NCBI RefSeq assembly: GCF_003864255.1
Contig: NZ_QWEZ01000001.1
Coordinates: 1,302,001 to 1,366,000, forward strand
Length of the DNA: 64,000 nt
Source of the DNA: Aestuariirhabdus litorea
GTDB lineage: Bacteria > Pseudomonadota > Gammaproteobacteria > Pseudomonadales > Aestuariirhabdaceae
Direction: 5' to 3'
In this document: positions 5,789 through 9,920 of the stretch, piece by piece
Position numbering within the stretch: position 1 is the first letter of the stretch
Layout: the number at the start of each line of letters is the position of its first letter
Position numbers and translations under genes: made by a program
The notes under the pieces: model-generated
Database searches by the model: none
What the model was told of the DNA's origin: nothing
Seen by the model: only the letters and a program-made list of their open reading frames with translations

Positions 5789-5819
5789 TTGACATTGCGG
5801 GAATGCAAACGTATGTTTG
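5789..5819 (+). promoter_or_regulatory. psrA promoter with overlapping PsrA operator
   Basis: A consensus -35 TTGACA (5789-5794), a 17 bp spacer and TATGTT (5812-5817) form a sigma-70 promoter. CAAACGTATGTTTG (5806-5819) covers the -10 and exactly fits the PsrA consensus (G/C)AAAC-N2-4-GTTTG(C/G) known from Pseudomonas. This implies autorepression. The transcript should begin near 5824. Confidence 0.85.
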
Positions 5820-5858
5820 AAACGACCGTACACAAACATAGATGCAAGAATAACAACG

Positions 5859-6488
5859 ATGGCTCAATCCAAAACCGTAGTTCGAATCTTGGATGCAGCA
5901 GAGCAGCTGTTCGCAGAAAAAGGTTTTTCCGAAACATCCCTTCGAACCATAACCGGTCAGGCAGGAGTCAACCTGGCTGCAGTCAATTACCATTTCGGCT
6001 CTAAAAAGGCGCTCATTCAAGCGGTCTTCGCCCGTTTTCTGGACCCCTTCTGTGCTTTGCTGGATGCCGAGCTTGAGCGGGTTGAGCAGCAGGGCAGCCT
6101 GGATTCCGCTAATGTTGAGGAGCACCTGAAGCTACTGGTCGATACCCTGCTGCGGGTAGAGTCTCGTTCCGAAAACGATCTGTCCGTCTTTATGCGGCTA
6201 CTGGGCTTGGCTTTCTCCCAGTCACAAGGGCATCTGCGCCGTTATATGCGTGAAACCTATTCGGGCGTGTTCAATCGCTACATGAGGCTGCTAACCGCCT
6301 CCACCCCGAACCTTACCCCTGCCGAGCTCTACTGGCGCGTTAACTTTATGCTGGGAAGCCTTGCGTTTACCATGTCTGGCTTCAGTGCCATGCAGGCGAT
6401 CTCCGAGCGTGACTATAATGAGAAACCCTCGGTGGCTACCATTCTTTATCGAATGGTTCCCTTTCTCGCATCAGGGCTTCGACACTAG
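5859..6488 (+). CDS. psrA: TetR-family regulator PsrA
   Basis: Fatty-acid-responsive TetR repressor and activator; in Pseudomonas it controls itself, rpoS and beta-oxidation genes. The N-terminal helix-turn-helix is at about residues 25-47 (SLRTITGQAGVNLAAVNYHFGSKKALI) and is nearly identical to PsrA of Pseudomonas as I remember it. The C-terminal helical ligand domain is normal; total 209 residues. An in-frame ATG at 5817 would add 14 residues but lies inside the -10 region and operator, so the ATG at 5859 (MAQSKTVVRILDAAEQLF) is chosen. It is transcribed away from lexA. Confidence 0.92.
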   Translation: MAQSKTVVRILDAAEQLFAEKGFSETSLRTITGQAGVNLAAVNYHFGSKKALIQAVFARFLDPFCALLDAELERVEQQGSLDSANVEEHLKLLVDTLLRVESRSENDLSVFMRLLGLAFSQSQGHLRRYMRETYSGVFNRYMRLLTASTPNLTPAELYWRVNFMLGSLAFTMSGFSAMQAISERDYNEKPSVATILYRMVPFLASGLRH

Positions 6489-6551
6489 CTCAAAGCCCGG
6501 TTTTACTGGCGCAGCTTTTTCAGTACCCTAGCACTCACACAAGGGGGTACT

Positions 6552-7031
6552 TTGACCGTATATATCTCGATTGCACAACAGCAACTTCGCCATGAGCGAA
6601 ATGGCTACCCACCCTTTGTCGCTGCGATATCCACCGCAAGCAAAGGAGCAGGCCAATGCAAAGGGAGCGAGCAGACCCCACTTGGGGTGCATCGTATACG
6701 CGCACTGATTGGGGAGGGGGCACCAGAAAACGCAGTGTTTGTGGGCCGCCGACCTACGGGCGAAATCTACACGCCGGCGCTGGCCCTAAGGTATCCCCGG
6801 CGAGACTGGATACTGACCCGCATTCTCTGGCTTTGTGGCGAAGAGCCCGGCTTTAATCGACTCGGATCGGTAGATTCCATGGCACGTTATATCTATATTC
6901 ACGGCACACCGGACACCGAGCCCATGGGCATCCCCGCATCCCACGGCTGTATTCGCATGCATAACCCGGATCTACTGACCCTCTTTGGGCGTGTGCATAC
7001 CGGGGAAAAAGTAATTATTTCAGACCGCTGA
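6552..7031 (+). CDS. Cytosolic YkuD-domain protein, probable L,D-carboxypeptidase (ElsL-like)
   Basis: A 159-residue single-domain YkuD (L,D-transpeptidase catalytic) protein with the signature H117 in YIHGT and S130-H-G-C133-I-R-M. C133 is the nucleophile. The TTG start at 6552 is preceded by AAGGGGG at 6541-6547. There is no signal peptide, lipobox or membrane helix, so it should stay in the cytoplasm, where a crosslinking transpeptidase has no substrate. Cytosolic YkuD proteins such as ElsL of Acinetobacter baumannii are L,D-carboxypeptidases that trim recycled murein tetrapeptides. The neighbour nagZ works in the same recycling route. The family is certain; the carboxypeptidase role is inferred. 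Confidence 0.85.
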   Translation: MTVYISIAQQQLRHERNGYPPFVAAISTASKGAGQCKGSEQTPLGVHRIRALIGEGAPENAVFVGRRPTGEIYTPALALRYPRRDWILTRILWLCGEEPGFNRLGSVDSMARYIYIHGTPDTEPMGIPASHGCIRMHNPDLLTLFGRVHTGEKVIISDR

Positions 7032-7049
7032 TCATTAGGAGGTAGTGGG

Positions 7050-8064
7050 TTGAGACAGGATCCTGGACCCCTCATGCTGGACCTTGCTGGCTGCGAACTC
7101 AGCCCGCAGGAGCGAGCCTTGTTGGCCCATCCACAGTGTGGAGGGGTCATTCTCTTCACGCGCAATTTCGCGAGCCGAGAGCAGTTAACCCAACTGACCG
7201 GCCAGATCCGACAAGCTAATCCTGCGTTGCTGATCGCCGTCGACCACGAAGGTGGCCGGGTACAGCGCTTTCGCGAGGGTTTTACCCGGCTTCCGCCCAT
7301 GGCGAGCTTTGAAGCGCTTTATAACGTGGCTCCCGAGGAGACCCTCGACCTGCTTAAAGACACCGGGTGGCTACTGGCGACTGAGCTGCTTGCTTGCGGC
7401 GTGGATTTCAGCTTTACGCCGGTTCTGGATCTGGATTTCAAGCGCAGCGATGTGATTGGCGATCGCGCCTTTTCCGCAGATCCGGTGCGGGTGGCGGTGC
7501 TGGCCGGAGCACTCATTGAGGGGATGCACGAAGCGGGGATGCCCGCCACAGGCAAGCATTTCCCGGGGCATGGTTGGGTCACGGCCGACTCCCATATCGC
7601 CATACCGACCGATACGAGAGCGCTCGACAGTATTCGCCGCCAGGACCTTGTCCCCTTCGCCCAGCTTGCCCGCCAGGGTCTGGACGCGGTGATGCCGGCC
7701 CATGTCATCTATGAACAAGTGGATCCATTGCCGGCCGGTTTTTCCCCCTATTGGCTGCAGCAGGTACTGAGGGGTGAGCTTGGCTTTGAGGGGGTGATCT
7801 TCAGTGACGACCTTTCCATGGAGGGGGCCAGTGTTGCCGGTGGCTTCAGTGAGCGCGCCCAGTCGGCCCTCAGTGCCGGCTGCGATATGGTATTGGTCTG
7901 CAATAATCCCGAGGGGGCCCGGGAAGTGCTTGGCTACCTCGAACAAGCAGACCTGACCTTGAGCCCGCGCCTGTCACGGCTAAAGGGGCGCATTGGCCCC
8001 CTTCAGGACCGGTCTCGCCAGCAGCGCACCGCCCAGCGCCTGGCCGAGCTGGAGGAGTGTGCCC

Positions 8065-8072
<8 letters not shown>
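7050..8072 (+). CDS. nagZ: Beta-N-acetylhexosaminidase NagZ (GH3)
   Basis: Cytosolic glycoside hydrolase family 3 enzyme that removes GlcNAc from 1,6-anhydroMurNAc-peptides during peptidoglycan recycling, supplying the AmpR ligand route. It has the family signatures KHFPGHG (169-175), the mobile histidine loop GHGWVTADSH, and the nucleophile D253 in FSDDLSM. The TTG start at 7050 has AGGAGG at 7037-7042. The 340-residue length is normal. It lies 18 bp after the YkuD gene and overlaps the MscS gene by eight bases (ATGAGTGA), so all three are probably cotranscribed. Confidence 0.96.

Positions 8073-9920
<1,848 letters not shown>

Follow-up and report, generated by a model that had tools for sequence, protein, structure and literature searches.

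A probable ElsL-type cytosolic L,D-carboxypeptidase encoded beside nagZ in Aestuariirhabdus litorea

The closest known counterpart of the protein studied here is ElsL (LdtK) of Acinetobacter baumannii. In the parts of the original report that we consulted, ElsL is a cytosolic enzyme that needs C138, that converts disaccharide tetrapeptide into tripeptide and that leaves pentapeptide uncleaved; the same source counts 788 orthologues, 624 of them in Gammaproteobacteria (PMC8649774). The consulted parts of another study also place ElsL in the cytosol and report that ElsL rescues an E. coli ldcA mutant and LdcA an elsL mutant; they already state that many bearers of ElsL lack both LdcA and LdcV (PMC8630537). 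The assignment as a cytosolic L,D-carboxypeptidase finds further support in the passages seen of PMC9239154, while those seen of PMC10864386 make no mention of ElsL. NagZ is treated as a step of the pathway and not as a neighbouring gene in the consulted parts of PMC8630537 and PMC9239154, and nagZ occurs 0 times in the main text of PMC8649774. Among the literature that was searched, and at the level of titles, none names a psrA-nagZ-YkuD or a YkuD-oppB murein-peptide operon.

Here, we analysed a window of 64,000 nucleotides from A. litorea, i.e. the whole stretch of DNA under study, in which an initial annotation had taken a YkuD-domain protein encoded next to nagZ for a probable recycling L,D-carboxypeptidase. 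As far as sequence can tell, this proposal is supported by the ElsL profile, by the leaderless reading frame, by the presence of a single YkuD protein in the genome, by the set of recycling genes and by the absence of LdcA. The features of the locus are collected in Table 1.

Table 1. Features at the elsL-nagZ locus, in window coordinates.
Feature	Position	Strand	Size and basis
PsrA-like TetR regulator, upstream, start codon uncertain	5817..6488	+	NF053516 222.9 bits, below cut-off 300
AAGGGGG, likely ribosome-binding site of the TTG start	6541..6547	+	reading of the sequence
elsL-type gene: leaderless YkuD-domain protein, predicted cytosolic L,D-carboxypeptidase	6552..7031	+	159 aa, TTG start; ORF, PF03734, NF040925, YkuD-like model
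Active site, H117 codon (6900-6902) to S130-H-G-C133 codons (6939-6950)	6900..6950	+	sequence; alignment
AGGAGG, putative ribosome-binding site of nagZ within the 18-bp gap	7037..7042	+	reading of the sequence
nagZ, family 3 beta-N-acetylhexosaminidase	7050..8072	+	340 aa; NF003740 481 bits (cut-off 207); PF00933 (Glyco_hydro_3) 288.5 bits
MscS-type mechanosensitive channel	8065..9174	+	PF00924 76.7 bits (scanned with the longer frame from 7993)

The protein carries YkuD as its only Pfam domain (PF03734, 68.2 bits for a cut-off of 23.4); neither S66 LdcA (PF02016) nor LAS (PF02557) was found in it with Pfam. The ElsL profile NF040925 ranks first, with E=7e-52 and residues 4-158 aligned on positions 9-160 of a model of 164, whereas the NCBIfam models for L,D-transpeptidases score 4e-7 or weaker. 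The strict naming rule of NF040925 has its cut-off at 270 bits, well above the 175.5 bits of our protein. Yet, this cut-off is reached in 0 of 145 genomes sampled from the order and in 0 of 281 sampled from the class, and we therefore read it as a rule for naming near relatives of the Acinetobacter protein. By the criteria of PMC8649774, members of the ElsL class combine a YkuD catalytic domain, including its Cys and His, with a clear relation to A. baumannii ElsL. The window protein has the former, and the profile match, which extends over 155 residues, establishes the latter. We aligned it with 15 of 30 relatives fetched from the order: H117 and S130-H131-G132-C133 are invariant in all 16 sequences. 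The complete active site described initially is indeed there.

The class is also defined by a length of 105-200 aa and by the lack of signal peptide, transmembrane helix and peptidoglycan-binding domain, and the available starts, the Pfam content and the hydropathy all suggest that this holds for our protein. The sole usable start in the frame is the TTG at 6552, the preceding in-frame stop being at 6486-6488. The 21 codons in between include no ATG, GTG, TTG, CTG, ATT, ATC or ATA, hence no leader can be fitted into this frame, and the export signal expected of a periplasmic L,D-transpeptidase (LDT) is missing. The maximal hydropathy over 15 residues near the N terminus is 0.71. Among the 30 loci of the order, many frames extend upstream of the YkuD domain. 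At one of them (L008) an in-frame upstream ATG would yield a lysine-led hydrophobic start, and a nearer ATG following a purine-rich stretch is also available.

An AlphaFold2 model built from the 16-sequence alignment has a YkuD fold with a mean pLDDT of 85 and is weak beside the active site (pLDDT of 49 for residues 101-110 and of 62 for residues 121-130). By sequence, even the nearest solved structure is distant (E=2e-5). The first two Foldseek rows are Bd1075 and Csd6. VIA-align puts YkuD of B. subtilis first (Z 15.0, 2.4 A over 109 residues) and gives Z values of 14.2 for Csd6, 13.8 for Pgp2 and 13.4 for Bd1075, among many transpeptidases. Csd6, Pgp2 and Bd1075 work on the sacculus, i.e. 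not in the cytosol, and L,D-carboxypeptidase activity is reported for Csd6 and Pgp2 in the material consulted. The model confirms the fold, and sequence and modelled fold together would fit an L,D-carboxypeptidase as well as an L,D-transpeptidase.

The gene lies 18 bp upstream of nagZ on the same strand, as had been noted at the outset, and NagZ is a cytosolic enzyme. A psrA-like gene ends 63 bp upstream of elsL, and the ATG of mscS (8065) overlaps the end of nagZ. Judging from this spacing, elsL and nagZ probably belong to a longer transcription unit, which would include the psrA-like gene and mscS as well. A scan of the window with Rfam gave no match. The initial suggestion of a two-gene recycling module is supported, with one refinement: the nagZ neighbour recurs in relatives, and the unit probably exceeds two genes.

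We examined this recurrence in the best 80 of at least 392 confirmed candidates from GTDB genomes, counting nagZ as adjacent when it follows elsL on the same strand at a distance of no more than 200 bp. A second set, of 30 loci from the order, overlaps the first in part (L014/L039, L015/L044) and was counted apart. Of the best 80 of at least 392, 35 have nagZ directly downstream of elsL on the same strand and 25 have a psrA-like gene upstream; 24 have both. In the remaining 45 of these 80 nagZ is not adjacent, and 4 of the 45 have 600 bases or less downstream. Among the 30 loci of the order nagZ adjoins elsL in 17, or in 18 with one at 215 bp. Being recurrent in 35/80 and 17/30 relatives, the adjacency is not due to chance. 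The fractions themselves describe close relatives only, since the larger set consists of the best 80 of at least 392 candidates. Among the matches listed, the closest named relative is an Aestuariirhabdus MAG (L037, 67%).

Other neighbours are found in the same 80 loci, i.e. the best of at least 392. Genes for oppB- and oppC-type permeases lie on the elsL strand in 12 of them (L050, L051, L055, L066, L075, L078, L083, L087, L089, L103, L110, L113), and a gene for a family-5 solute-binding protein (SBP5) lies upstream of elsL in 9. Three importer loci, four when L050 is counted, have nagZ 1.9-2.4 kb downstream. The loci that combine elsL with oppBC, some of which also have SBP5 ahead of elsL and nagZ some 2 kb after it, are possible operons for the import and trimming of murein peptides. 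A fusion of ElsL to a solute-binding protein was considered and rejected: in the long open frames of L070, L060/L139, L140 and L141, SBP5 is in another frame than elsL. A tadA-like deaminase gene lies near elsL, within the stretch fetched, at 15 of the 80 loci, several of which are labelled betaproteobacterial (L045, L057, L074, L077, L080, L090-L092, L094, L100-L102, L108, L114, L116). At locus L093 the neighbour of elsL is a gene for a tRNA pseudouridine synthase. Finally, mscS follows elsL directly in 1 of the 80 and in 4 of the 30 loci of the order (L020, L022, L025, L030 and L107, with Pfam confirmation for L025 and L107), which is what the loss or relocation of an intervening nagZ would leave.

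The A. litorea genome (7 contigs, 98.7% complete) encodes a single YkuD match, the window protein itself. One YkuD match per genome is also what we found in 23 of the 64 ElsL-bearing genomes of the order. This single match leaves no room for a leader, hence the genome seems to lack an exported YkuD LDT. The follow-up proposed with the initial annotation, whether the genome lacks ldcA, was carried out, and PF02016, the S66 LdcA family, has no match at this level of completeness. The genome has matches for Mpl (733 bits), AmpG (483) and AnmK (455), and an Amidase_2 protein of AmpD type (121 bits). Its only PF02557 match (51 bits) is a protein of 313 aa, L117:779-1720 (G000:C1), that begins with MKRRDFLEG. 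By eye this is a Tat-like leader, and the protein is therefore probably an exported zinc peptidase. With the window protein as the L,D-carboxypeptidase, no step between import and Mpl would be missing from this genome.

To see ElsL in its wider context we used two samples, with E-value limits and a division of LAS matches into long and short that were chosen after inspection of the data. The order sample has 145 genomes from 47 families; ElsL was counted there when full-length with a best E <1e-40, and LAS matches were called strong at E <1e-16. The class sample has 281 genomes, with ElsL counted at a best E <1e-30, and repeats four genomes of the order sample (G000, G020, G035, G036). Long LAS matches span about 429 bases or more and short ones 378 or less. 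We read 18 of the strong LAS proteins, 8 of the long and 10 of the short type, and the split agrees with their similarities in BLAST. With these limits, ElsL is present in 64 and strong LAS in 61 of the 145 order genomes, and no genome has both (p = 1e-23, kinship being ignored). The strong LAS matches divide into 57 long and 4 short; ElsL and long LAS are thus found together in 0 of 145. When families are counted, 23 of the 47 have ElsL, 19 have long LAS, none has both and 5 have neither (Fisher test, p = 7e-9). In the class sample 214 of 281 genomes have ElsL and 10 have long LAS, again with none shared (p = 3e-7). That ElsL and long LAS never occur together in these counts suggests that both carry out one peptidase task.

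Two broader statements were rejected. ElsL does not exclude all strong LAS as a general rule: short LAS is found with ElsL in 8 of 21 class genomes. Nor is ElsL a simple replacement of LdcA: in the order, LdcA occurs in 9 of 64 genomes with ElsL and in 9 of 81 others (Fisher test, p = 0.62). In the class, LdcA scores over the cut-off in 31 of 281 genomes, 5 of which are among the 214 with ElsL, a mutual avoidance with p = 6e-14; two matches that fall short of this cut-off (G169, G188) are excluded from the count. One genome with ElsL (G395) falls in neither LAS class, its LAS match scoring 63.9 bits over profile positions 32-131 within a frame of 851 aa, and G349, with an ElsL match of only 3.3e-16, was not counted as having ElsL. 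Weak LAS matches were left out of all counts; they occur in 11 order genomes, 8 of which have ElsL, including A. litorea itself, and in 21 class genomes, 18 of which have ElsL. Other than that of A. litorea, they could include divergent LAS enzymes.

Eight long LAS (PF02557) proteins were inspected (L118, L120, L129-L133, L135); these eight have about 227-257 aa and are leaderless by eye. The short LAS protein L125 has a leader-like hydrophobic N-terminal stretch. A hydropathy scan alone fails to separate leaders, giving 1.57 for the Tat-like L117 and 1.63 for the long LAS protein L133. In several genomes (e.g. G003, G068, G105) mpl lies at 10 kb or less from the long LAS gene on the same contig. 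Mpl scores over its cut-off in 120 of the 125 order genomes with ElsL or strong LAS, versus 9 of the 20 others. Four of the five exceptions are genomes less than 90% complete (G052, G053, G091, G113). The fifth (G019) is 100% complete and has ElsL with no Mpl over the cut-off.

We conclude that the window protein is, with a probability of about 90%, an ElsL-type cytosolic L,D-carboxypeptidase. This assignment draws on the sequence class, the catalytic residues, the lack of room for a leader, the gene context, the pathway genes and the zero overlap with long LAS. Its substrate, the hydrolytic outcome, the cytosolic location and the order of steps are taken over from Acinetobacter ElsL and from knowledge of the pathway. 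AmpG would import anhydro-muropeptides into the cytosol, where NagZ would take off GlcNAc and AmpD would free the stem peptide. Cys133, with His117, would then attack the mDAP-D-Ala bond of the tetrapeptide. The acyl-enzyme would be resolved by water, and not by another stem, yielding tripeptide and D-Ala, and Mpl would join the tripeptide to UDP-MurNAc.

Other explanations can be set against this one. The nagZ neighbour might be a matter of chance and the protein a cytosolic peptidase or acyltransferase of unrelated role. One might argue so from the 45/80 loci, among the best of at least 392, where nagZ is not adjacent, and from the other neighbours encountered, i.e. the tadA-like deaminase, mscS and the tRNA pseudouridine synthase of L093. 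But this is the least credible of the alternatives, and one to which we give almost no weight, given the adjacency in 35/80 (best of at least 392) and in 17/30 loci, the oligopeptide-importer genes in 12/80, the zero overlap with long LAS and the association with Mpl. YkuD acyl-enzymes can in general be resolved by amines, and one might thus speculate that the enzyme acts in the cytosol by exchanging D-Ala at the end of recycled tetrapeptides for another D-amino acid, with hydrolysis as a side reaction. This L,D-exchange seems very improbable. It is at odds with the zero overlap with long LAS, from which we infer a shared peptidase job, and with the observations that Acinetobacter ElsL fully turns tetrapeptide into tripeptide and that E. 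coli LdcA restores the mutant, as given in the parts consulted of PMC8649774 and PMC8630537.

An equally faint prospect is that the protein is a true L,D-transpeptidase that is exported without a classical leader and makes 3-3 cross-links or anchors lipoproteins. The YkuD domain has, after all, its complete catalytic motif, and as the sole YkuD protein of the genome it is the only candidate if 3-3 cross-links made by YkuD enzymes exist there. However, the frame leaves no room for a leader, YkuD is the sole Pfam domain in 159 aa and the gene sits with that of NagZ, a cytosolic enzyme. Besides, the protein is close to a family whose tested member is, in the parts consulted of PMC8649774, cytosolic and unneeded for 3-3 cross-links. 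The gene most likely encodes an ordinary member of a family of cytosolic L,D-carboxypeptidases known since 2021, and both its neighbours and its distribution among bacteria agree well with that role.

This reading has consequences for annotation and for the study of murein recycling. An annotation by domain alone would call the protein an L,D-transpeptidase, implying 3-3 cross-links and carbapenem targets that are probably absent from A. litorea. Naming it ElsL fills the gap in the recycling pathway of an organism that lacks LdcA. As ElsL and long LAS show zero overlap, one can test whether lineages replace one L,D-carboxypeptidase by another. A wider scheme, to which we give about even odds, is that ElsL and the leaderless long LAS proteins fill one slot. 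One of the two would be kept per Mpl-recycling lineage and fixed at the family level, with the S66 LdcA as an optional addition. Some of the Gammaproteobacteria would encode ElsL in an SBP5-elsL-oppBC importer operon, sometimes with nagZ nearby, as a dedicated unit for the import and trimming of murein peptides. Three observations go beyond the literature examined, namely the recurrence of nagZ beside elsL, the importer operons and the zero-overlap count; they are supporting facts and not a new kind of system.

Among known systems, Csd6, Pgp2 and Bd1075 share the YkuD domain with the window protein but are longer, with 268-316 residues in the solved chains against 159 aa. LdcA of E. coli (peptidase S66) would catalyse the same reaction at the same place of the pathway, by analogy with ElsL. 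It differs in belonging to another family, that of a serine peptidase in the parts seen of PMC8649774, and the A. litorea genome has no PF02016 match. LdcV of Vibrio cholerae, of the LAS superfamily, would by the same analogy also perform this reaction, as a zinc metallopeptidase according to the consulted parts of PMC8649774. The long LAS (PF02557) proteins behave as an either/or partner of ElsL and may be orthologues of LdcV. Closest of all is ElsL of A. baumannii, which like the window protein is a single leaderless YkuD domain with a catalytic Cys, in a genome without LdcA, as described in the parts seen of PMC8649774. The window protein scores below the NF040925 cut-off, and its gene adjoins nagZ. 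It is also the sole YkuD protein of its genome, whereas A. baumannii, in the same parts of that source, has a periplasmic LdtAb as well (PMC8649774).
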